In this document: positions 1-40,263 of the stretch, piece by piece | Layout: every line of letters begins with the position of its first letter | Position numbering within the stretch: the stretch's first letter is position 1 | From: Loripinus fragilis | Lineage: Eukaryota > Mollusca > Bivalvia > Lucinida > Lucinidae | NCBI GenBank assembly: GCA_964019695.1 | Contig: OZ026527.1 | Coordinates: 70,950,593-71,014,592 of the forward strand | Direction of reading: 5' to 3' | Length of the DNA stretch: 64,000 nt | Notes under the pieces: generated by a model | Databases searched by the model: none | Told to the model about the DNA's origin: nothing | The model's input: the letters and a program-made list of their open reading frames with translations, nothing else | Translations under genes and position numbers: made by a program

Positions 1-2403
1 ATTCACATCAAAGAGGAGCTTACACCAATATTGCCAGCACCAAAACACACACTTACACTTGAACAGGCAACATTAGCACAAAGTGACCAACCAGAACCTG
101 GTCAAATACAAGACAATTTAACTGATTACACACAACTAGATCAAACAAACACAACTGAACACCTACAAATACAAGCCGTACAAACACAAACAAATCAACC
201 TGGACAAACAGAACTGGAACAAGCACAGGCAATGGCACTACCACAAACACAAGACAAAACCACAGAAAAATTGTTTGCAGAGTCAATTGCAGTCATCTCG
301 CATGAGATGGATGGACTCGGCAAACAAATTTTTGCATTAGGCAACACACTAACACACAAAATAACACAACTGGCAAACAGTGTTTTTGCCTTGGAGAATC
401 AAAACACAGGCATCAACACAAACATTAAACAAATTGAAGAACAAAACACAAAAATACAAAAACAACTCACATGCCACGAAGTATTTTTACAGGACATCAA
501 AACAATTCTTCCACCACCAACACCCATTGCAAGCAAACTCCCAATTTTCACAGAAGCAGCTAAATCTAAATACCAATTACAAGCAACCACAATGCAACAA
601 GCAAAAATGCCACAAACAGTACCCCAGACTACACTTACACTACCACAATGGACAAAACAACCTGGCACTCCAACATTAACAAATTCACCCATCACTTCAC
701 AACCAGGACCATATATAATATATGGACTCCACCCTACATATACACCATCTCATCCACAAATCTCAGCTACACCTGACATAAAGCCACTGCCAACACTAGA
801 CTTAAAACCTAAGCATCCACAACAATCATTGATTGACAACATTGCATCCGCCATACCAATTTCATCAATCTACCAAACAAAACCACACACAGGAACCACC
901 GTCACATCATCAACTACATACACTACCACTGCAAAGCAACTCAACAATTTTACACAGCAAAACCAAAAACAGATGACCAACAGACAGTTGACCGTGGTCG
1001 GCCACGGACAAGACAGACTGACGCTCCGCGTGACCACTCTAGCCAGTCTCCTAGGCCTCAAAAGCTACAGCTTTTTTCAGGAGACCCCTCTGGTATATCC
1101 TGGTTATCTTTCATAATGAAATTTGACAGGATATCCCAGAGGGGAGGGTGGTCTGAGGACAAAAAGTTAGACAGACTGTATGACTGCCTAACCGACAAGG
1201 CACTTGAATATGCGGCGCGTTCAGACAACCGCGACAATTTTGCTGCGCTAAAAAGCGAACTTGCTTTGCGCTTTGATCTAAAAGAGGAGCCAGTTGCTGC
1301 AAGACAGCAGCTTCACCTTGCAAAACAAGGTGATGATGAAACGTTGGAGGCGTATTTGCAGCGCATTCTGGCTATCGCCATGGATGGCTACAAAGACGCC
1401 TCCGCCGTTCTTTTGCAGCAAATGGCTACCAAGGCATTTTTGCGCGGTTGTAGGCATAAGGATGCTGCAACTTTGGTGATGAATGAGGCCCCACAAACCA
1501 TCCATGTAGCCTGTAAGTGGATTAAGACCATGTTGGCCAATAAAAAAGCTATTGGGGGGAAGGTCTCTTTTTCTGAGAGAATATTCACGGTGCAGGAGGA
1601 GACGAGGGTCTCAAATATTGAGAAAAAGGTCGATGACCTTCTAAAAACTGTTCATAGGCCGTCGACTCCCCCTCGTCTTGCTTCACCGTCACCCCCGCGG
1701 TACTCATCAGGATATCAGGGTCAAAGCTGGCAGAGACCTAGATCTCCTGATTATTACCGTGGTGGTTCACCAAATGGACATAAGTACCCCAAAGGTTTTC
1801 ACCATCCAGGCAAGGCCGGTACCCCTACAGAGGTGGCTACTCACCTGAGAGCTACCACCGTAGGAGTCCATCCAGAGATGGTAGGGACGGTGCAGGTATG
1901 GGTGGTAAGTACCCACCTGCTCAGTATCCTAGCAGCTCTGGATTTAATCCAAGCCAATATGGTTCTAATCCAGATTACAGGAATAGGTATTCCCATTCAC
2001 CCAATTACAACCGTTCACTTTTGAATCCCTTTTGTATAAAACTTGTAACTATTCATTTTAGTGCTTGTAATTTTTGCTATTGTGTATTTATACAAAGAAA
2101 TAAAGTTTAAACCAAACCAACCGTTCACCAAGTCCAAGGTACCGTCCTCCTAATCAACATTACCCTCAGGGATACCCCCCAAGGTATCCTAATCCCCAGC
2201 CATATCCGTCCACACCCCCTTGGCCCTATGGGAATACTGGACCTAGGCCAAGTGGTCCTGCATATGGAGGGTCTTCTGCTCCTCCACCAGACCACCGTAG
2301 GTCACAAAGCCCTGAAGCGCGGGTTCGTGCCGTCTCGGAGGAACAGGAGACCACCCAGGCTTTAAACTTGGACGGACTAGGCAAACCGGCCACCAACCCC
2401 TAG
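1..2403 (+). pseudogene. gag: Gag of a Ty3/Gypsy LTR retrotransposon, left-truncated and disrupted
   Basis: Structural protein of an LTR retrotransposon. The reading frame is already open at base 1, so its start and the 5' LTR lie outside the window. The first ~340 codons are Thr/Gln-rich with a coiled-coil-like stretch near residues 80-150. Around 1020-1060 the coding frame changes, and from about 1062 to 1797 it encodes a capsid-like domain (a WLSFIMKFDR motif at about 1101-1130, then helical Arg/Lys-rich sequence). Near 1797 it shifts again into a Pro/Tyr/Arg-rich tail that resumes after a 99-bp insertion (2019-2117) and ends at TAG 2401-2403. The two frameshifts plus the insertion mean this copy cannot make intact Gag. 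There is no CCHC zinc knuckle; the basic Pro/Tyr/Arg tail may bind nucleic acid instead (inference). Pol follows in the -1 frame. Confidence 0.85.
2008..2128 (+). mobile_element. 99-bp retro-inserted sequence in gag with 11-bp target-site duplication
   Basis: The 11-mer CAACCGTTCAC occurs at 2008-2018 and again at 2118-2128, bracketing 99 bp (2019-2117). The insert ends with an AATAAA polyadenylation signal (2099-2104) about 14 bases before the second repeat. The gag tail frame leading into the first copy resumes exactly from the second copy, so the insertion is secondary. It looks like a 5'-truncated reverse-transcribed mRNA 3' end or short SINE-like RNA. No long poly(A) remains. Confidence 0.75.
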
Positions 2404-2406
2404 TCC
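2361..2406 (+). promoter_or_regulatory. Programmed -1 ribosomal frameshift signal between gag and pol
   Basis: The heptamer TTTAAAC (2361-2367) sits in the gag zero frame as T TTA AAC, the canonical X XXY YYZ arrangement. After a 6-nt spacer, GGACTAGG (2374-2381) pairs perfectly with CCTAGTCC (2399-2406), giving an 8-bp stem with a 17-nt loop. The gag stop TAG (2401-2403) lies in the 3' arm. Slipping back one base at 2367 enters a frame that stays open into the protease. CAAC in the loop (2394-2397) could pair with GTTG (2419-2422) as a short pseudoknot; that part is speculative. Confidence 0.8.
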
Positions 2407-3389
2407 AATCAGAATCGAGTTGTCATTGTGAGATTTTGGAAGTTTCTCTACCAAGCCATAGAAATTTAACTGCTTCAGTAGAGACACTAATCAATGGTAT
2501 TCCAACCAAAGCCGTACTTGACACAGCAGCAATGGTTACACTGATAAGGGATGACTACATGACCCCTTTGTATAGTCAAGACCAATTAGGCCCCGTTTGT
2601 GTTTTGACAGGGATTGGTTCAGACCCTGTACAGGGTCGCATAGTACATAATGTGCCAATCACTGTCGGCACACAAACTTTTCTACATACTGTTTGTTTTG
2701 CCCCAGTTAGAGATGCTTGTCTCTTGGGTCTTGATTTCTTGACTGCCACTTCAAGTGTCCTTGACCTTGGCGATGAAACCTTTACAATAGGGGAGGACAT
2801 TGTTCCTGTCAGTGTGACCATGACTGCTGAAAGTAAATTTAGTAAAGTAAGTGTTGTACGGCGCACAGTTATTGAACCATTTTCATTCGGTTATGTTACC
2901 GCAAAATTAGACACTCCATTTGACAGTCCGTTTATTTTTGAGGGCTGTCAAACTAAGCATGCTCTCCTGTCCTGTGTTTACGGTGAACAAAAATCCTTTA
3001 CCGTTAAAGTCGTCAACGACTCCAATTTTTTCGTTACCTTTAAAAAAGGAAAGAATATAGGTCATGCTGAAGCAGCTACACAAATTTCGCCTGAGCAAGC
3101 CCAGGTTCTTCAATCTTCAAATTTAGGTCCCAGAGAAAGGCCACATCCACAGGAGGCACAGTTTCAGACAGACAAGGAGGATACAGATATGCCTGCTCAT
3201 TTAAAACAAATGTTCTTGGATAATATTTCGGAACTTTCTGATGAACAAAAACTTAAATTCAAGAACTTAATTTCCGAATTCGCGGATATCTTTTCTCAAG
3301 ATGATTTCGATCTAGGCTGTCTAAAATCGGGAGTGGAGCATAAGATCCAAACACTTAATGAAATTCCAGTTAATGAAAAATTTCGGTGA
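2367..3389 (+). pseudogene. pol: Pol N-terminus: aspartic protease to RT linker, ends at in-frame TGA
   Basis: The frame is open from the frameshift site. A retropepsin-like domain carries the DTAA active-site tetrad (codons at about 2520-2531) followed by the hydrophobic MVTLI flap base, and later LGLDFL, where family members have the second conserved block. The following ~200 residues lead to the RT. The frame stops at TGA 3387-3389, just before the RT fingers, and pol continues beyond it in the same frame, so this is a point nonsense mutation. The preceding G and following GA fit decay of a CpG. No methionine is needed because this region would be made as a Gag-Pol fusion. Confidence 0.85.
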
Positions 3390-6065
3390 ACTCCACTCCA
3401 ATTCCAAAAGCAAGAGCAGGAGTATATTGAAAAACTCCTGAAGCAAGGCGTAATTGAACCCTCAGTGTCTGAATGGTCTGCACCTCCAGTCCTTGTTAGG
3501 AAGAAAACGGGCGAGCTCAGGTATTGCATAGATTATCATGCATTAAATGCCAGAACCTATAAAGACAATTATAGTCTCCCCTTAATTGAAGACTGCCTGG
3601 ACTCCTTGTACGGTAAGTGTGTGTTCTGCGTATTGGATCTATGTAGCGGCTATTTTCAAATTCCCCTCGAAACTGGTTCACGGCATAAAACTTCTTTTAG
3701 TACTAGGTTTGGCAGTTACCAATGGACCTGTTTACCGATGGGCTTGTGTACGGCCCTTGCAACTTTTCAGCGCGCAATGCAGCTGGTATTGCGTGGTTTG
3801 ACCTGGGAAGAGGTCATTGTGTATTTGGACGATGTAATCGTTCTTGGGACCGATTTTGATGATGCTCTGTTAGCTCTTAGAAAGGCTTTTACTCGCTTCC
3901 GTGAGCATGGTTTGAAGCTCAAACCCAAGAAATGCCATTTCTTCAAAGAGGAAGTGGAATTTCTAGGAAAACTTGTTAGCAGAAGCGGCGTTTCTATTTC
4001 GGCTGATAAACCTGAGGCAGTTAAACAATGGCCAGTCCACACCAATGTGAAAGAACTTCAATCTTTTCTTGGTTTCATGAATTATCATAGGAATCATATC
4101 AGGGATTTTGCTCAGGTCTCTGCTGACCTATATGCCTTAATTCATGCTGAATATTTCAATTGGAGAAGTAGGCACCAAGCCTGCTTCGAAAAACTTAAGG
4201 ATTTAGCAATTTCTGCTCCTATGCTTTGTCATCCGTCACCTGACGGATTATTCATTTTGGACACTGATGCTAGTGGCACCCAAATAGGTGCCGCTCTTTC
4301 TCAAGTTCAAGACGGTGTAGTCAAGCCCATCTGCTTTGCCAGTCATGTTTTGTTAAAACAGCATCGCAATTATTGTACTACGCGCAAAGAATTACTAGCC
4401 GTCGTGAAATTCTGTCGCCAATTCAGACATTATTTGCTCGGACGGTTGTTCCTCATTCGCTCTGACCATAATTCCCTAGTTTGGCTGACCCGATTTAAGC
4501 ACCTAGAGGGTCAATTAGCAAGGTTTCTTGAGGAATTATCTCAATATAATTTCAAACTCGTTCATAGGAAAGGTGCAGAACATGTTAATGCAGATGCTCT
4601 TAGTCGCATTAAGGACCCTTTAGAAGAATGTGACTGTTATGGAGCTGGTCAGAGGTTGGGCGATCTCCCGTGTGGAGGTTGTCATTATTGTACGCGGGCG
4701 CATAAGCAGTGGGCACGTTTCAATGATGATGTAGATGATGTTGTCCCTTTGGCTATTCTTAGTGTAGAGGCCGCAATACCGGATCAGGCAATGCCGGAGC
4801 ATCAGGTAGTCTCCAATTGGGTTGAAAATTTGTCCTCCATTGAACTCAGAAGGGCTCAAACTCATGATCCATCAATCGGGATTGTGATGAATTGGCTTGA
4901 GCACTCTTACGAACCCACCGTCCGTGAACTGCAGCTCACTGGTCCTGAAACAAGGGCAATGTGGTTAACTAGGGATCAGTTGAAATTCAAGGACGGTGTT
5001 TTGTATTATTCTTGGACAAAGGTTGTAGGCCGCTCTGATTGTTTAATTGTTCCTGAGGAATTCAGACCTCAAGTCTTATATTTCTGTCATGACTCAAGAA
5101 GTTCAGGACATTTAGGCCAAACCAAAACACTTGATAGGTTGAAACAGAGATTTAATTGGTACGGTATGTCCAAGGATAGTGACATATATGTCAAGCAATG
5201 TTCAAATTGCAATAAGAACAAGAAAGGCAATAGGCTACCTAGGAGTGCTCTAGAAATTTATCACGCAGGGTATCCTATGGAGCGTGTCCATTTGGATATC
5301 CTGGGTCCGATAAACCCAAGGAGCAAATCTGGCTCAGCTTACATACTTGTCATGGTGGACCAATTCACCAAATGTGTTGAGCTTGCACCTTTACCAGCCC
5401 AGAATGCAGAATTAACGGCGGGGGCATTTCTCAAGCATTTTGTTTCGACGTTTGGCTGTCCACTTGAGGTACATACAGATCAAGGGCGCAATTTTGAAAG
5501 TGATCTGTTTCAAGCTTTTTGTAAGGTCCTCGAGATTACTAAGACCCGGACCACACCCTACCATCCGGCTAGTAACGGCCAGGTGGAAGTTTTTAACAGA
5601 ACCATTCTGCAAATGATTCGAGCATACGTCTCCCGGGGTGTTAAGGATTGGGACGAGCATCTTCCACTCATTTCTATGACCCTACATTCCATGAAAAACA
5701 GGTCAACAGGTTTTTCTGCCAACATGCTAATTCTGGGGAGAGAGGTTATCCAGCCTATTGATTTAATGCTTGGGATACCTAGCCATACTCCCCAGGACCC
5801 GCCAACTTGGGTCGCAAATCTTACCAGTAATCTCTCCAAGATCCATAAACTGGCCAGGGAGAAGATTGGCGAAACTCAGCTGCGCCAAAAGAGAGATTAC
5901 GACCTAAGGGTATTTCAAAGGTCCTTTAAGCGAGGAGATATTGTTTACCTGAGAGACTCCTCTACCCAAATAGGCATAAGTTCCAAAGTGAGACCCCCCC
6001 TGGATTGGTCCATATTTGGTCATAAGAGCTCGTCCACCAATCTATGCACTTCAAGGGAGACGTAG
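3390..6065 (+). pseudogene. pol: Pol: reverse transcriptase, RNase H and integrase
   Basis: Same frame as the protease segment, past the TGA at 3387-3389. Residues are counted from codon 3465. The RT palm has the YLDD catalytic box at 120-123. RNase H has D266 (LDTDASG), E309, D334 and D377 (NADALSR). The integrase zinc-binding HHCC motif is H542, H549, C579, C582, and its D,D35E core is D611, D672 and E708, all present. Domain order PR-RT-RH-IN is that of Metaviridae (Ty3/Gypsy), not copia or BEL. The frame is lost at a C7 run (5994-6000), after which the correct C-terminus continues one frame over. The catalytic core is intact apart from the nonsense codon and this frameshift. Confidence 0.93.
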
Positions 6066-6471
6066 GGTGACTTTCGTGCATCATGATCGGATAAAGCCAT
6101 GTAATGATTCTTCCTATCCCCTGTGGTTACAGAGAAAAAGACATTTATTGCTTGACACTCTGCCCACGAATGATGGGGAGGATTGGGACATGGAGCCAGA
6201 GGAGCCCAGTCAGGATAATTTCCCAGATGGAGGATTGTTTGATCCCGATCAGACACTTCCTTATATGCTGGGGGATGATCCTGACATGACTTTGCATACG
6301 CTGTTTGGTGAGAGTACCCCTTCTGAGGAAAATGATATGGTAGAGAGTACTGCTGATTTTTCTGACCCCTCTGGCGACTCAGATTCTGACTCTGATACCA
6401 CCATCCTATCAGAGCCCAAGACTACTAGGGCAGGTCGTAAAATTCAGTTACCTGCCCGATACAGAGACTGA
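6001..6471 (+). pseudogene. pol: Integrase C-terminal tail (GPY/F-type) and acidic pol C-terminus
   Basis: The frame continues pol after the C7 slip at 5994-6000. A GPY-type integrase C-terminal module appears at once (W, GPY, then ARPPIY and a basic VTFVHHDRIKP stretch), followed by ~110 residues rich in Asp/Glu/Ser. The terminal AGRKIQLPARYRD resembles the pol C-termini of animal Ty3/Gypsy elements. Stop TGA is at 6469-6471. One extra C in the homopolymer explains the break; it could be a genuine mutation or a sequencing indel. Confidence 0.85.
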
Positions 6472-7299
6472 GGGAGTATACAGCTTTGACGTTGGTTTTT
6501 GTTATTGTCCTTGCTAGCTCTTTGAAACTGCGGGACTCTAGCAGATGCTGGTGTCATTTCTTCTGTAGTCTCTGTGTAGACCCATTCATTCTGATTTTTT
6601 TTCCTGTAAGTTGACATCAGTCTTGGTATTGGTCATAATTAGCTCTTTGGAACTATATGATCCTTGCTAATTCTGATGTTATATTTCCTGGAACCTACAA
6701 ACAGCAACATTTTCTGTCATTCAGCTATATATTCTGTCATACTATCCTGCTATATATATATTCTGCCATATTTTCTTGCCATATACATTTTCTTGCCATA
6801 CACATTTTCTTGCCATATTATGACACAGGTACTTGCCATATAGTGGTGTCATAATTTCTGTCGTGGCATATTACAATATGCCATATATTCTACTTTTCCA
6901 TGGCATATTCTGTCATATTTTTGACACAATTTCTTGCCATGATTTCTGGACACAATTTCTTGCCATAATTGCTTGCCATATGTTGACATTTTATTGTCAT
7001 GTATTTTGACAAATTTCTTGCCATTTCTGCCTTTTGTCGTCATAATTTCTTGCCATACTTATGACGTATTTGCTTTCTGCATATTGAAGCCATATTTTGA
7101 CAGCAGTTTCTGTTATCATCCTTACAAGCTCTTTGAAACTGTGGACATTTAGCAGATGCTGGTGTCATATGTGAATTCACTACTGTTTATGGACAATTAC
7201 AACGTAGGACTCTGTACTAGTTTTAACGAAGTGACTGTTGCAGGTTCCCATGTTGTAATAAATTATCCTCCTCTTGATTCATGTATCAACCAATCCTTA
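6472..7299 (+). repeat. Post-pol region of the retrotransposon with TTCTTGCCATA array
   Basis: No coding potential. GCTAGCTCTTTGAAACTG at 6513-6530 recurs in weaker form at 6641 and at 7127-7141. Between about 6715 and 7065 an irregular array repeats (T)TTCTTGCCATA, with roughly nine CTTGCCAT copies and several inverted GGCATA forms. Spacing is 18-90 bp, so it is a degenerate array and not a clean minisatellite. Confidence 0.7.
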
Positions 7300-7740
7300 A
7301 CATCTGTTCTGGCGATGGTTCATGCTAGCTCCTTGAAACTGCTGCTGTCGTCGGGCCTGGTGTTAGGGATCTCATTCCTTAAATTATCACCTTCATAATT
7401 CATTCATCAAACAATTCTTGACATCTGTTCTGGCGATGGTTCATGCTAGCTCCTTGAAACTGCTGCTGTCGTCGGGCCTGGTGTCCAAGGTATCATTTCA
7501 TTATCATCCTCACATAATTCATTTATCATTCCATTCTTGACATCTGTTCTGGCGATGGTTCATGCTAGCTCCTTGAAACTGCTGCTGTCGTCGGGCCTGG
7601 TGTCCAAGATATCATTTCATTATCATCCTCACATAATTCATTTATCATTCCATTCTCGACATCTGTTTGGCGATGGTTCATGATAGCTCTTTGAAACTTG
7701 CGTGCCGTCGTTGGACATGGTGTCGGGATAACATTATTTT
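7300..7740 (+). repeat. Four tandem ~120-bp repeats between pol and the TatD ORF
   Basis: Units begin ACATCTGTTCTGGCGATGG at 7300, 7421, 7540 and 7659 (spacings 121, 119, 119). Each carries GCTAGCTCCTTGAAACTG followed by a TGTCGTCGGGCCTGGTGT block. The fourth unit is more diverged. The element-specific motif ties this array to the retrotransposon. Confidence 0.9.
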
Positions 7741-8161
7741 TCATAAAATACTGAAGCTTGTTCTGGTGGTTTTCAATGTTAACCATTGACTAACACTAGA
7801 TCAGGTTTCAAAGGGTTCCATTCTCACACATAGCATATTCACCACATTTCATCTTCAAAATTCTTGCATTCAGATAGACTGCATATTGCATGATATATAA
7901 AGTTATATATATTATGCTGGCATATATCAAAAATATATATGCTGCATTACAAAAGAATTGTAATGCTCATTTATTAGCACTATAGAGCATAATTAGTGCT
8001 TCAAATTAAATATTAATTTTTTAAAATTAAATTGCTACATTTACCGAATCGGTACTTTCCGTGTATACTACCAGTTCACTGTAACTGATGTATATATGGG
8101 GAGTACTGATGGGTGATTCATAAGTTTCTGTACTGTGGGAGAATGGACCCCATGCTTAAGG
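7741..8161 (+). other. AT-rich spacer before the TatD ORF
   Basis: No gene seen. A TATA-box-like TATATAAAG lies at 7894-7902, about 280 bp upstream of the TatD ATG. It is a possible internal promoter but in an AT-rich context that produces such strings by chance. Confidence 0.3.
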
Positions 8162-8182
8162 CCCTTCCTTCTTTTGTAGATG
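8162..8182 (+). promoter_or_regulatory. Splice-acceptor-like sequence directly abutting the TatD ORF ATG
   Basis: A pyrimidine-rich run (CCCTTCCTTCTTTTGTAG, 8162-8179) ends in AG immediately before ATG 8180-8182. The TAG at 8177-8179 is also an in-frame stop, so the ORF cannot extend upstream unspliced. This fits expression from a spliced subgenomic RNA, as retroviral env is expressed. The donor would be upstream of this window or in gag and is not identified. Confidence 0.55.
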
Positions 8183-9577
8183 CTGCCAAAAGTCAAGAGG
8201 GCACGTCGCATGTTATATGACGATTGTTCAATATGTGGGGCCAACTCTCCCCACATGTATAAGCACTATCTTCGGGTTCATATGAACCCTGCCACTTCAT
8301 GCGTGAACTGCCACATGTCCGCTGGGAACGAGCGGGAGCTCCAGAATATTCATGGGCAGCACCGGTTGTTCTCTGGGGAATATCTGCTACAGGCCTGGTT
8401 CTTGCTAATGAATGGGATGTTCCTATTCCTTAGCCAAGGACTAGGGCTGGGATCCCCCATTGAATTGCTGGGCTGTGCGGCTGTTCGGGAGCTGACTACT
8501 CGTCCCCTGCGGTTCTCTGAAGAAGATTTATCCTTCCTCAGAGAATATGACAGAAGAGCAGGTCTGGAGCCCCTCTCTGATGATGGATATTTGATATTGC
8601 CCCCAACTCGACTTATTGTTCTGATGCACCCAGCAGTTACATCTAGGCTACTGGCCCATCTGGATCCTCAGACAATATTGCGCTTCCGACATCATCAACA
8701 GTACTCTTTGGCAAATGGCTCCAGTCCTCCTGTAGGGTATCCAAGTGTAAAGAGGGCTATAATTGACACCCACTTTCATTTGGATAGCTTTTCCAGTCGT
8801 CAAGGTCGTTCTTTGTCAGATCTGGAGAGCTCGATATCTAAACCCTTATTAATTGTCGTCCCTTTTGCTATAGCAAATTATGTCTTTCCAGATAAATGGT
8901 CTCGGCTTAGTGAGCATGTGAGGGCTGACCCAAGGTTGCGAATAACTCTTGGTGTCCATCCTCATATGATCACTGAGAATCAGGTAACTTCTTTGTTTGG
9001 CAGACTGGAGGGATTATTGGGTCAGTACCCAGAAGCCGTTGGAGTGGGTGAGGTTGGCCTGGACCTGACTACGTTGTGCCGTCATAATTGCCGTGACCGT
9101 GCGGGTTGCCGTAGTCGGAAATTAAAGGGACAGCGCTGATTCCTGCGGCTTGCCTTCCAGCTTGCGAAGCAACTCGACAAAGTTCTCATTTTGCATGTGC
9201 GCGATAGGAATACTGGTGAGGCGGCTGCAGAAGTCCTCGATCTACTTCGCAGCATGGATATGACAAACCATAGGATCCACCGCCATTGTATTGTTGGGGG
9301 AGAGGAGGAGTACATTCAGTGGAGTACTTCCTTGCCCAACTGTTACTTTAGCATATCACCTGTGACAGTTAGAAACCCTGGAACGATGCGTGCTTTGAGC
9401 TCTTTGGATAATCGCAAGCGATTGTTGCTCGAGACGGACTCCGCGTATTTGGCAGACGACCCCTGGTGCGTTAATGAAGTCGCTGGGGAGGCAGCTCGGT
9501 CATTGAATATGACAATGTCTGAATTTGTTGGAGTCTGTAACAAAAATGCTGCCAGGTTATATAGCTTACCTTGGTAG
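8180..9577 (+). pseudogene. Zinc-finger plus TatD-family nuclease ORF (third ORF of the retrotransposon)
   Basis: A 465-position frame with one in-frame TGA (9137-9139, position 320). The N-terminus has two Cys/His pairs typical of small zinc fingers: C16-x2-C19...H29-x4-H34 and C41-x2-C44...H58-x2-H61. From about residue 192 it is a TatD-like amidohydrolase with the full expected metal set: DTHFH (H198, H200), GVGEVGLD (E291), ILHVRD (H339), H369 and LLLETD (D420). TatD proteins are metal-dependent 3'-5' nucleases. No introns are evident. It sits after pol and before another copy of the GCTAGCTCTTTGAAACTG motif, so it appears to be cargo or an env-position ORF of the element. The alternative, a retrocopied host TATDN-type gene landing beside the element, is less likely. 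The single TGA follows a C, consistent with CpG decay. Confidence 0.85.
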
Positions 9578-10700
9578 ATTACCTTATGAATCCACTGTTT
9601 AATCCGAATCCGTGTCATGCAAAAACACAGATATTTACTGTATCAAATTCATATTTCATTTGTTAATTTTCTAAAATTCTACAGGTTACTTGAGAAATAG
9701 TTTTGGAATTTGTACACCTTGTCTAGAGGGATGGCTAGCTCTTTGAAACTGCCGTATCTGGACAAGGGTGTTCTAATCATATTTCTTTGTTTGCTTAGCA
9801 TTAACCTCTATTTTATTATTGCAGCGTCTGAAGTTCACCGATCATAAGTTTATGTAATCTTGTAGTGCTAGTATTTTTATAGCTGCTTTCATTATCATTA
9901 TTTTCTAACATTTTAGGAATCACTATGGAATGGGTACATTATAAATATTTAATATACAATCATGTAACTATATTATATATTATAATGTCAGATGACATTA
10001 CTTGCTGTAAAATGTATGCATTTCTGTGATTCCTGGGATGTGCCTTTTTAGTATCTTTGGTTTGCTTAAATTTCCTTTAGTTGCTTTTTAGTTTGTAAAA
10101 TCTATATTTCAATTACAGCCGGATTCCCTTTCTATAAGGTCTCGAGCCTCCAGACCTCACATTGGATTACATCCAATCCTTATTTGTGGCATATTTTAGT
10201 TATTGTCTATATTATATATGTGTATTTATTTTTGCATGTCCATGCATGTGGCATCTAGGCATGAAATGGCTATGCCTAACATTTAGGCCTGGAATATATA
10301 TATATGAAATAAGCATTTTCATATAGCTCTAGATGAGCACATCTACAATGTAGATTTATGTATATTTGATTTTGTATTTTGCCATTTAAATTGATAAATT
10401 TATGCATGTCTAGATTTCTAGGCACTACAGAGTAGTCTACCTTAGACTGCAGGAACCTGTGATTTTATATTTAAAATTATGAATGTTCAGTATTTTCTTT
10501 GGTTTATGTGAATGCTTGGCTTCAATTTACTTGATTTCAAGCATTCCTATTCACCCATTTAAATGCTGCATATCTCATTCCCTTTTTGTGGTCTGGACTG
10601 GGGCCAGTCTAATACCTCCAACTAAAAATAAAAGATACTCTTATTTTTTCTGGTGTATCAATTTGTTTTCAGGACTGATGCCAGTCTAAACTTAAAGTAC
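9578..10700 (+). other. 3' region of the retrotransposon, probably including the unresolved 3' LTR
   Basis: The motif GCTAGCTCTTTGAAACTG recurs at 9734-9751, so the element extends at least that far. Small inverted repeats occur at 10138-10158 (AGGTCT...AGACCT) and near 10162-10178. AATAAA occurs at about 10626. The two phrases GGACTGGGGCCAGTCTA (about 10596) and GGACTGATGCCAGTCTA (about 10673) bracket the poly(A) signal. Without the 5' LTR in the window the LTR edges cannot be fixed. Confidence 0.4.
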
Positions 10701-10959: not shown

Positions 10960-11630
10960 TCATTGACACTTGCTATGGGTAAATGCCTATGGTTTTCAAT
11001 AAAAATAAAAGTTTGTCAATCGTCCCTTTCTTCACCTTAAAGCTACCCTGACCTGAGTACTTTATTGCGGTGAAATCCGTTTTCGATATTAAAGGCTTCA
11101 AAGATGTAAAATTTTGGGTAGAGCAATCAGTTTTACATTATAGTATATAGAAATCTGAAAACATTTTTTAAAATATCATTCCCCCCGTGTGCCAGCAAAA
11201 GCTTTGGCATGTATATGTGTTACCGTATTTTACAAATTGTATGGAAGTGGCTTGCTGGCAAATGGGGGGGGGGGGGTGAAGATGTTCAGCAGTCCAAAAA
11301 CCCGGGGCCTAAGCCCATAAAATGCCTTTTCTACCAAATAAGAAATTACTGACAGTAATCAAGTTCTCTAGAACCAACCTCCTAAATTGCTTTGTATTCT
11401 GTGCTAGTTTAATATAAAGTACTTAAAGATTAAAAGTAGAATTAGCAAGGTTTAATGCATTTTTTCATAAGAAAAAATCTCACTGTTATTAAATGGCACA
11501 TTCTTTTGCAAACGTCCTGTACTTATCTATTTGCATGCCAGGGAATTGTTCATGTTTTTATTTTTGTCTGCTGACTTTCTTCAAAATTAAGTTGTTAAAA
11601 ATAAACCACCCAGGACAACCATCGGAGTAT
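10960..11630. other. No gene seen; AT-rich with a poly-G run
   Basis: Non-coding in all frames. A poly-G tract lies at about 11264-11276 and an AATAAAAATAAAA string near 10999. No transposon family recognised. Confidence 0.5.
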
Positions 11631-11695
11631 CAAACAGTTTGGATCCAGATGAAGACCGACATTCTGTTGGTCTTCATCTGGGTTCAAACTGTTTG
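11631..11695. repeat. Foldback palindrome of the CAAACAGTTTGGATC family
   Basis: CAAACAGTTTGGATCCAGAT on the left pairs with its near-complement ending in AAACTGTTTG. The two arms of ~27 bp are separated by about 11 nt. Relatives are at 24184, 25016, 35727, 37544 and 47286. Confidence 0.8.
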
Positions 11696-11791
11696 CAAAA
11701 GACTATTGGCAGACGACAAAATTATCCACTGACATGCAAAGAGTTATAACAGGTAAATACTTTAGTGTTCAATATATTGTCTCATATAGGG

Positions 11792-14540: not shown

Positions 14541-14741
14541 GGAGCGCAGTGGTTCAGTGGTAGAGTGCTTGACTCGAGACCGAGGGGCCGCGTGTTCGAG
14601 CCTCACCGGCGTCACTGCGTTGTGGTCCTTGAGCAAGACACATTTATCATAGCTTAGTACTGGTTCAACATGGGAAGACCCGTCCCTGTTTAACTGAAAG
14701 ATTGTTGATGGGACGTAAAGAATCAAATCAAACAAACAATA
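14541..14741 (+). mobile_element. tRNA-derived SINE with 15-bp target-site duplication
   Basis: It opens with a tRNA-like head containing a box A-like GTGGTTCAGTGGTAGAGTGC and a box B-like GTGTTCGAGCC, the RNA polymerase III internal promoter. A conserved body follows (GTCCTTGAGCAAGACACATT ... GATGGGACGTAAAG) and then a short A-rich tail. CTCTCTCTGTCTCAG is present at 14526-14540 and 14742-14756, a clean 15-bp target duplication in a TC-rich site. Diverged copies lie on the minus strand at 21070, 23640, 37862 and 46256. Confidence 0.85.
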
Positions 14742-33552: not shown

Positions 33553-35726
33553 TTAACATCAATTCTCTGTAACTACTGAACCTGTTATAATAGAGGTTGT
33601 TCACGCTCGGTCTCGGATTTTATTAAAAATTACTGACAATGATTCTTTCTTGGTAAAACCAAAAAATTTAATGCTAGTTCACTCATTTGTCTTTCCGTTG
33701 CCATGGCAACAGCTTCCAAATATTTTGGCCAAAAATCAGCCAAAATTACCTTAAAATTCAATAATTTCACTGCAAAACTGCCATTTATACTGCCTTTCTT
33801 TCACAATATTTTTCATTTTGTCTGGTAATTCTAACTTGAACTTATCTAAATCATACCTCATACCTTCCAGAAATAAAAGTTTTTGTTGACTAAATTAACA
33901 CTGAATGTGGGTGGGGTAACACAACCCCAAAATGTGTCGTTTTTGCACTTTTTGACAGCTTCTATCATTAAGGGCTCGACAGCCGGACACATTACAGGAC
34001 TAACCTGAAAATCAATATTACCCCATCTTTCAAAAATTAGAATAAAAATTTTGGGAAGTTACCATCTTCTATGTGTTACCATGGAAACAAGAGGTACACC
34101 GTTCCAAAATGCATGTTTTGATTTTAACAAATATTTATGAGGTGTGAAATTCACACAACAGCCAGACTGTAACACTGAACAAAAGAAAGTGTTAAGCTAC
34201 CATTTTTCTGCCAATATCTATAAAAAATATTATCAGAGGCCCCAATGGGGGTTTGATTTAGTCATTTTAGGGGCACAATGGGGAAAAAAAATTTGAAATT
34301 ATTTGAAAAAAAGTCAAAGCTCTCTTGCATAATAGAATTAATTGTATCAAAGTTGTTTTGAAAAGCCATGTCTACATTATAAAATTGTAATTAAAGAATA
34401 AAAACAATTGTAAATCTCAGGAGGGGCTCCCGAAGGGGCTCAAATAGATTGAATGTGGGTGGGGTAACACAACCCCGAAATGTGTCGTTTTTTGCACTTT
34501 TTGACAGTTTATATCATTAAGGGCACGAAAGCCAGACACATTATAGGATTAACATGAAAATTTATATTACCCCATCTTTCAAAAACTACAATAAAATTTT
34601 TGGGAAGTTACCATCTTCTTTGTGTTACCATGGAAACAAGAGGTACACCGTTCCAAAATGCAAGTTTTGATTTTAACAAATATTTATGAGGTGTGAAATT
34701 CACACAACAGCCAGACTGTAACACTGAACAAAAGAAAGTGTTAAGCTACCATTTTTCTGCCAATATCTATAAAAAATATTATCAGAGGCCCCAATGGGGG
34801 TTTGATTTAGTCATTTTAGGGGCGCAACGGGGGCAAAAATTCAGAAATTATTTGAAAAAAAGTCAAAGCTCTCTTACATAATAAAATAAATTGTATCAAA
34901 TTTGTTTTGAAAAGTCATGTCTACATTGTAAAATTGTAATTAAAGAATAAAAACAATTGTAAATCTCAGGAGGGGCTCCCAAAGGGGCTCAAAATCGATT
35001 GAATGTGGGTGGGGTAAGCCTACCCCTAAAAATCATACTTTTTGCATTTTTGATTAGCCACAGACAGCTTGTGCGGATAATTTGACATTTTGGTGTATGC
35101 TTAATTAAAGCATTGAGTGTGAAATATCATGAGATAGAAAAAGAAATGGGAAGATGATTCAAAACATCAAATTAAATATGCAGCGAATATCCCGCAAACA
35201 TTTTGCAAATATGCGACGAACATGCATTTAAATATGTAAATTAAATATGCAGCGAATAATAATTGCGACTATCCTGCGAACAAGCAGCAATCAATGATTT
35301 ACAAAAGACAAAGCTTGTTAAACTCAAATAGTCAAAATTAATTTATCCATTGTGCACTGACCTCAGCAAGCAACACCATTCCAGAACAATCAAAAGGTAT
35401 CAACTCAAACATCATAGGAACAGAAAAACACATCAGAAGAGATAACATTCCTTAAAAAAGACTTCTCAACATGTTGTCAATTATGCATCATGGCAATTAT
35501 GACAGCCATTTAATTGAAGAGTTTTAAGGTGAGATAATTTTGAATCTATCTCCCCAGTAAAAAATAAGATCTAATGATTGGTCACTTACTCCCTTTACCT
35601 GGAGGCCTGCATTACTAATTGAATCATTGCCGCAGGGCTCCCGGTTTTTCGGACGGTAGAGTCCCTTCTGTAGTTTATCTTGAAATTAAACCTCGGGGTA
35701 CTTTGTTAAATTATGCACATGGAACG

Positions 35727-37955: not shown

Positions 37956-40263
37956 TTTTCAGTATCTATGTCATTATCATTACAGCTATCTGACATCTAG
38001 TGACAGAAATATACATACCGGTACATACAAACCTGAAACATTCTTCATTGTTCTACTCTTCTTTTGTCCTATGGTAAGCGATACCATAACTGCCTTGTCC
38101 TTCTAGCTCATTTGGGAGATATCCTGAGAGCAGATTTGGTAAATCTGCAACACTTCTGTTTTCAAAATTTACTGCGGTAAAAAGCAAGGGATATCGTTAT
38201 ATCTATTCAAGAACAGTACATTCTTGAACTTTTCAAGAACAGTTTTTAAGAACAATTGCTCTTAAATATTTGTCCAATTTTACATTCATAAATTGTATTT
38301 GAGCTGATCTTGAACACTTTAAGAGCAGTTCATGTCCAGTTCTTGATCCTTGTTCTTGAATAATGAAAGAACTTTTCTTGGACCTTTATTTAAATTTTCG
38401 CAGGGGCCGTCTAATTTGGGCCTCTGGTAATATTTTTTTAGCTAAATGACACAGCAAAATGCAAGGATAACATTCATATCTGCTCTTAATTTCAGTGATG
38501 AGACACTTCGTAAATATTAGATAAATTTAAAACTAGGCTATTATTGAACAATGGAGATATTATTTTTCAAAACACCTTTGATACAACTAGTTTTAATTTA
38601 TTAGAGAGCTTTGACTTTAAGAAATTTCTTAATTTTTGCCCCCTTGCGCCCCTACAATGACCAAAATCAAGCCCCCATTGGGACCTCTGATGATAATTTG
38701 TATAGATATTGGCAGAAAAATATTGGACTTATATTGCCTCTGTTTTACTATTTTGCACTTATTACTGAACAAAGTTGGTCAATTGCATTTATTCTCTAGA
38801 TGCCAATGAAATTTAACCCTTTTAATCCGTTTTGAGCCTCTTAGGGAGTCCCTAATGAGATTTCAAACTGTTTATATTCTTTAACTACAATTGTATAATG
38901 TAGATATGACATTTCAAAACAAATTTGGTACAGTTAATTTTGATTTGTAAAAAGGCTTTGACTTTTTTTTCAAAAAAAATCTAAATTTTTGCCCCCCTTG
39001 TGCCCTTAAAATGACCAAACTCAAACCCCCATAGGGGCCTCTGATAATATGTTTTACAGATATTGGTAAAGAAATGGTAGTGTTACAATTTCTTTTATTC
39101 ATTGTTACAGTCTGGCAGCTGTGTGAAATATACACTTCATAAATATTTGTTAAATTCAAAATATGCATTTCGGAACGGTGTACCTTTTGTTTCCATGGAA
39201 ACACATAGAAGATGGTAACTTCCCAAAACTTTTATTTTAATTTTTGAAAGATGGGATTTTATTTAATTTCATTTCAGTCCTATAATGTGCCCAGCTTTCG
39301 TGCCCTTAATGATATAAGCTGTCAAAAAGTGCAAAAAACGACACATTTCGAGGTTGTGTTACCCCACCCACATTCAATCGATTTGAGCCCCTTCTGGAGC
39401 CCCTCCTGAGATTTACAATTGTTTTTATTCTTTAATTACAATTGTATAATGTAGATATGACTTTTCAAAACAACTTTGATACAATTAATTCTATTATGTA
39501 AAAGAGCTTTGACTTTTTTTCAAATAATTACTTAATTTTTGCCCCCGTTGCGCCCCTAAAATGACTATATCAAACCCCCATTGCGGCCTCTGATAATATT
39601 TTTTATAGATATTGGCAGAAAAATGGTAGCTTAACACTTTCTTGTGTTCAGTGTTACAGTCTGGCGGTTGTGTGAATTTCACACCTCATAAATATTTGTT
39701 AAAATCAAAACATGCATTTTGGAACGGTGTACCTCTTGTTTCCATGGTAACACATAGAAGATGGTAACTTCCCAAATTTTTTATTCTAATTTTTGAAAGA
39801 TGGGGTATTATTGATTTTCATGTTAGTCCTGTAATGTGTCCGGCTGTCGAGCCCGTAATGATATAAGCTGTCAAAAAGTGCAAAAAACGACACATTTCGG
39901 GGTTGTGTTACCCCACCCACCATTCAGATAGAACTTCGATATGAAAGAGACCAGAAATTCTTTAAACATTAACGTTCGGATACTAACCAAGGGCAATTCT
40001 CCAATTAATAAACAGCTTTATAGCTAACATGTTTGTATTAAAGAAGATATAACAGTCCGAAATTCGCCAAATTTCATTGATTTTCTGACAAATTTTAGCC
40101 AAAAACTATTGACCCTGTTACCATGGCAACGGATATGAAAATGAAGGAATGATGCATGATTTGCATGTTTTGGCATGAAAACAAACAATCATGGAAAGTT
40201 TCATCAAAATCTGTGACTATGCGTGAACAACTAGGTTCGATGGTTACAGAGAATTGGTGTTAA

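Follow-up and report, generated by a model that had tools for sequence, protein, structure and literature searches.

Many Ty3/Gypsy elements of the bivalve Loripinus fragilis probably carry a zinc-finger/TatD nuclease gene in the env position

Standard accounts give Gypsy elements gag and pol and, in some cases, an env gene; in Errantivirus-type elements, as in retroviruses, env is a third open reading frame (ORF) expressed from a spliced RNA. Acquisition of env has been described for Errantivirus and Anakin (PMC12440569), and retrotransposons with captured DNA methyltransferases are on record from dinoflagellates and charophytes (PMC5890265). Here I describe a 64-kb stretch of the Loripinus fragilis genome (C16:70950593-71014592, hereafter the window) that holds a Ty3/Gypsy element with another kind of third gene, ORF3, which encodes a zinc-finger/helical domain joined to a TatD nuclease. 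The Group II TatDs, as defined in PMC10085689, include host TATDN2 and TATDN3 and bacterial YcfH; the same account reports 3'-5' exonuclease and apurinic/apyrimidinic (AP) endonuclease activity for TATDN1 and TATDN3, and AP endonuclease activity for all three TatDs of E. coli.

The element shares with Ty3/Gypsy elements (Metaviridae) the order gag, protease, reverse transcriptase (RT), RNase H, integrase, as well as long terminal repeats (LTRs) with TG..CA ends, a target-site duplication (TSD), a primer-site-like stretch and a polypurine tract, but differs from the usual form by the extra ORF 3' of pol. Like the env of Errantivirus-type elements and retroviruses, this third ORF follows pol and is apparently expressed from a spliced RNA; unlike env, it encodes by homology a nuclease and not an envelope glycoprotein. 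It has the HxH motif, the ligands and the barrel fold of TATDN2, TATDN3 and YcfH (PMC10085689), whereas the N-terminal finger/helical domain, the many copies and the mobility are additions. With the methyltransferase-bearing retrotransposons it has in common an extra enzyme acting on DNA, although enzyme, hosts and retrotransposons all differ. Searches of the open PMC library, some of them covering just the top-ranked results, gave no title or abstract beginning with a TatD gene in a retrotransposon; Repbase and subscription papers were outside the scope of this search, and a database entry is possible.

Many Ty3/Gypsy elements of this genome probably carry a true third gene, a finger/helical domain followed by a Group II TatD, in the position of env. 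ORF3 sits between pol and the downstream LTR, its distances from the integrase are clustered and near-constant, and it is conserved and keeps its catalytic residues. An earlier note, made from the letters of the window alone, had suggested that the TatD ORF lies inside the element, and a search of the 1.987-Gb genome bears this out, as two other copies have their TatD enclosed by a pair of LTRs. The copy on C19 (12,296 bp) has a 231-bp LTR pair that is 100% identical and the TSD AAAA, and the copy on C12 (12,141 bp) a 231-bp pair that is 99.6% identical and the TSD CAAA. In both, the integrase and TatD matches lie between the LTRs, with TatD between pol and the 3' LTR. Each also shows a target duplication of 4 bp, a primer-site-like stretch behind the 5' LTR and a polypurine tract ahead of the 3' LTR. 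The LTRs start with TGTTG and finish with CAACA; TTTGGCGACGAGTG comes after the LTR, and GAAAGGGGGAGAG precedes it at the 3' side.

The co-occurrence of pol and TatD extends well beyond these copies. Across the genome 150 of 304 TatD candidates and 110 of 4205 integrase candidates were scored, the latter giving 111 listed matches, of which 90 have a TatD on the same strand no more than 6 kb downstream. As a control, these 111 integrases were compared with TatD in the other arrangements: a single one has it upstream on its own strand, and a single one has it on the opposite strand. Grouped by identity to the window integrase, a downstream TatD was found for 11 of 13 at 90-100% (the window's own family; the other two were not examined), 11 of 11 at 78-82%, 21 of 26 at 70-78% and 47 of 56 at 40-50%. 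The constant spacing that the earlier note had named as a check is also present, with gaps clustered at about 2610-2624, 2331-2341, 2060-2073, 1948 and 2671 bp. The first of these clusters accounts for nine of the 11 copies in the 78-82% class, the second and third for 10 and seven in the 70-78% class, and the last two are exact distances in the 40-50% class, shared by nine and five copies, respectively; the window's own class is looser (2611-4098 bp). By contrast, the NADAR domain has only 6 candidates genome-wide and is not multicopy.

The 465-position frame in the window has the residues H198, H200, E291, H339, H369 and D420 where they had been placed, counting position by position with the in-frame stop as one position. 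That stop, a TGA at 9137-9139 which the earlier note had overlooked, divides the frame into 319 and 145 amino acids, both of which match TatD_DNase in Pfam (E 9e-10 and 9e-21). Compared with the relative P0001, the window ORF3 is four residues short, PWY and one Met being gone just after the first finger. Because of the stop and the lost residues the TatD ORF of the window copy is broken; two other genomic copies have an ORF3 of 469 amino acids with no stop. The putative Cys/His fingers are likewise visible (C6, H24, C35, C38, H52 and H55 of P0001), and these residues are mostly nearly invariant among 21 aligned relatives. With an HxH motif and Glu, His, His and Asp ligands in a TatD barrel, the fold being predicted for P0001, ORF3 is by sequence and predicted structure a Group II (HxH) TatD, and its protein is very probably an active nuclease. 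The N-terminal domain has no clear relative among solved structures.

Third ORFs read at 12 loci (L110-L121) are of two types. Those at L110-L112 and L119 are compact, with 470-500 amino acids from stop to stop (the window's family has 469), and those at L113-L116 and L118 are long, with 790-964; L117, L120 and L121 hold partial long ones. The long ORFs also have an N-terminal extension of unassigned kind and an Arg/Ser-rich linker 5' of the finger. Among five elements compared, integrases are 43-46% identical between the types and 57-77% within them, and the split between compact and long agrees in the integrase and TatD trees. ORF3 diverges faster, the TatD domain being 49% identical where the integrase is 77% identical. 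Proportions of synonymous (pS) and nonsynonymous (pN) differences among the compact families are 0.64-0.76 and 0.27-0.37, and the ratio of the corresponding rates (dN/dS) is 0.15-0.30 in six pairs with finite dS (three more being saturated), values that are rough because dS is near saturation between families. For the long types saturation affects 19 of 21 pairs, leaving two with a dN/dS of about 0.08. By these substitution patterns, ORF3 is under purifying selection.

Directly 5' of the ORF3 start codon in the window stands CCTTCCTTCTTTTGTAG, with a pyrimidine at 14 of the 15 bases before AG. A candidate acceptor was defined as at least 11 of 15 pyrimidines before a CAG or TAG 0-11 nucleotides upstream of the ATG, and 10 ORF3 copies were compared (the window, L110-L116, L118 and L119; the nine loci use the first Met of the stop-to-stop frame, and L117, L120 and L121 were excluded as their frames begin inside the ORF). 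Nine of the 10 have such a signal, compared with a background of 109 of the 2642 ATGs on both strands of the window (4.1%). The binomial value of 3e-12 is too strong, since the thresholds were set with the sequences already in view and the families are related to one another. In a test on proteins alone, nine of 10 upstream extensions are compatible with an acceptor, as are 190 of 1045 Mets taken as controls (p 2e-6 by Fisher's test, or 1e-5 without one near-duplicate). Thus, the sequences strongly indicate that ORF3 is made from an env-like spliced subgenomic RNA with its acceptor just 5' of the ATG.

Apart from the roughness of those dN/dS values, several observations weigh against a selected third gene throughout this group. 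Neither LTR-bounded copy is fully intact, as the C19 integrase has two stops and the C12 TatD one; two near-identical copies of the window family give a dN/dS of 0.60, from few changes; and the signal at L119 is weak (9 of 15 pyrimidines). None of the five integrases at 60-70% identity has a scored TatD, their downstream DNA not having been examined, and 61 of the 150 scored TatD matches are without a scored integrase, a figure that says little because so few of the integrase candidates were scored. The earlier note had held that full-length copies without the TatD ORF would speak against it. Of the 21 integrases without a scored TatD, four were inspected downstream, chosen for long open pol frames, and three have TatD sequence (L122, L123, where it is in short pieces, and L124); the fourth, L125, has no sign of it from +1.0 to +3.5 kb. 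L125 is a distant relative (integrase 44% identical). At 43.9%, its integrase (L130) matches the window's as closely as do the integrases of the long TatD-bearing elements, and TatD-less relatives therefore seem to exist.

What would such a nuclease do for a retrotransposon? The N-terminal domain would bring it to nucleic acid, where it may act on the element's own complementary DNA (cDNA) ahead of integration or in its course. It would trim flaps or 3' ends and cleave abasic sites, which would allow damaged cDNA to be repaired at that stage. Work of this kind on the element's own cDNA is the likeliest role, if somewhat short of an even chance. It is somewhat less probable that a widespread and old animal Gypsy group encodes its own abasic-site endonuclease/3' exonuclease, expressed through an env-like spliced RNA and guided to nucleic acid by a new N-terminal domain, to finish or repair its cDNA; the dUTPase of some retroviruses would then be its analogue.

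The main rival is counter-defence, in which ORF3 would degrade guide or sensor nucleic acids of the host, or the cDNA that alerts host DNA sensing. The env-like position and the probable separate spliced expression fit an accessory protein, the faster divergence of ORF3 suits a protein in conflict, and TatD kin occur in a phage-defence system, whose QatD gives a match to P0001 (E 2e-15) that falls well short of its cut-off. On the other hand, purifying selection and the presence of the gene behind 90 of 111 integrases of several families suggest a regular and not an occasional role, and no target is known; I regard counter-defence as somewhat less likely than work on the cDNA. That ORF3 has ceased to cut nucleic acid and persists purely for structure or nucleic-acid binding is improbable. 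The N-terminal finger/helical part is indeed also rich in nearly invariant columns among the 21 aligned members, but so is the catalytic site, with four of the six metal ligands invariant and the remaining two in at least 90%. Seen in the window alone, with the 3' LTR absent and a 1.7-kb spacer between pol and TatD, the TatD might have been a host gene or other mobile gene set beside pol by chance or nested insertion. The enclosing LTR pairs refute this for the present genome, the clustered spacing in tens of copies speaks against it, and similarity of 96-97% runs unbroken from the end of pol through TatD in two further copies (reaching 10305 and 10592), so that such a neighbour has next to no probability left. 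If ORF3 is instead a true third gene, a selected nuclease in the env slot across integrases so far apart would point to a replication or host-conflict step that other elements handle differently.

The window copy itself is a broken Ty3/Gypsy element, truncated at its 3' end (Table 1). The window starts within the element, of which another 1374 bp lie to the left. The pol upstream of the TatD frame is real, since Pfam and motifs both find its domains, and its closest solved relative is Ty3 Gag-Pol (E 6e-88). The first gag frame is 32% identical to the gag part of the protein P0101 over 272 positions (E 7e-28), and the gag start of the window copy, MSINVY.., is seen in L103; the second frame has a weak Retrotrans_gag match under the curated Pfam cut-off, and the protease region matches gag-asp_proteas at E 6e-6, slightly under it. 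From 5992 on, IGPYLVIRARPPIYALQG resembles the GPY/F motif, on which the naming of the integrase C-terminal stretch is based; Pfam gave no match there.

Table 1. Parts of the Ty3/Gypsy element at the start of the window, in 5' to 3' order
Feature	Position	Strand	Basis or remark
5' LTR of the window copy	C16:70949219-70949449 (window -1373 to -1143)		97.0% identity to C19 3' LTR (L103)
gag, split over two frames (1-1116, 837-2024)	1..2024	+	ORF list; gag start left of window
Aspartic protease region, DTAA at ~2520	2316..3389	+	Ends at stop just before RT domain
pol: reverse transcriptase (YLDD at 3822), RNase H, H2C2 zinc-binding domain, DDE integrase	3390..6065	+	Pfam, motifs
Presumed integrase C-terminal GPY/F-like stretch and acidic tail ending PARYRD	5992..6471	+	Frame differs from 3390-6065
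Spacer between pol and ORF3, with ~120-bp direct repeats and TAGCTCYTTGRAACT motif	6472..8162	+	Repeat and motif searches
Inferred 3' splice site CCTTCCTTCTTTTGTAG	8163..8179	+	Directly 5' of ATG
ORF3: N-terminal zinc-finger/helical domain and Group II TatD nuclease (by homology)	8180..9577	+	TGA-interrupted, four residues short
3' untranslated part, motif copy at 9736-9750	9578..10592	+	Likeness to C19 and C12 copies stops at 10592

Two other copies in the genome have this spacer joined without a break to the end of pol and to TatD. Against 0.01 expected, the window has 7 occurrences of the motif family TAGCTCYTTGRAACT, every one at 6515-9750, and a variant stands at 7126. The motif does flank the TatD ORF on both sides, as had been claimed, but it is repeated inside the element and is not the LTR. 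No LTR ends between 6472 and 8180, as the element's LTR has no match anywhere in the window; nor has the element's tail any convincing match elsewhere in it. Because likeness to the C19 and C12 copies also stops where it does, the window copy has lost its 3' end: relative to the C19 copy it is without 377 bp and the 3' LTR, and only the 5' LTR and a primer-site-like stretch remain at its ends. As for an env-type ORF, no other forward-strand frame of at least 100 amino acids lies in 6472-10592 of this broken copy, and the ORF that follows pol is the TatD.

Phylogeny places ORF3 apart from the TatDs sampled with it. The tree against host TATDN proteins that the earlier note had proposed was made in part, with 60 domains that include TATDN3 and leave out TATDN1 and TATDN2; in it 40 family rows lie across a branch (100/97) from 18 bacterial rows and two TATDN3. 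Named relatives include proteins of Crassostrea, Mytilus, Haliotis, Pinctada, Lytechinus and Strongylocentrotus. P0101, from a 14,743-bp contig, runs unbroken from a gag N-terminus of the window element's type into a TatD C-terminus that is 73% identical to P0004 over 116 positions, and its start, MSINVY.., agrees by eye with the gag start of the C19 and window copies; such a fusion is what an internal deletion of a gag-pol-TatD element would leave. The gag N-terminus in P0101, L106 and L103 also has a helix-hairpin-helix-like stretch (HHH_3 in P0101 at E 2e-4, under the Pfam cut-off), which to my knowledge is unusual in Gypsy gag. In the relatives P0093 and P0095 a zinc-finger/TatD is fused to NADAR, which stands at the C-terminus of one and the N-terminus of the other. 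According to PMC11125620, guanine ADP-ribosylation is reversed by NADARs, and this hints at nucleic-acid repair.

Some "TATDN" or "TatD family" annotations in mollusc, echinoderm and symbiont data may be retrotransposon genes. P0015, P0019 and P0047, TatDs assigned to Candidatus Thiodiazotropha, a bacterial symbiont, are near kin of the animal element family; they probably stem from retrotransposon DNA of the host that was binned into symbiont metagenome-assembled genomes. In the giant squid, the legend of a Hox-cluster figure lists TATDN2 among transposon-like genes (PMC6962438), and this gene may be a TatD-bearing element of the same sort.

The primer-site-like stretch TGGCGACGAGTG is seen after the 5' LTR; elements of the Mag-like lineage use a tRNA-Ser primer. 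ARAGORN reports three tRNA-Ser-like units (cga, cga and gga; window 14543-14615, L091 and L098). The one in the window belongs to a repeat that recurs near 23.7 and 46.3 kb and is perhaps a short interspersed element. At L104 (C1:133180400-133187400) two elements of the window family stand head-to-tail in tandem, the 3' part of the first being followed by an LTR and then, about 1 kb on, by the gag of the next. Further clusters of TatD matches are found on C5 (near 1.16 Mb) and C10 (near 96.1 Mb). Elsewhere in the window, 11523-11752 is a dispersed repeat that also turned up in 8 of the 22 stretches of 10 kb sampled blindly from the genome; here a long AT microsatellite follows it, and 33901-35053 and 38821-39927 consist of direct tandem units of about 0.55-0.6 kb, with an inverted copy about 4 kb apart at 86-93% identity.

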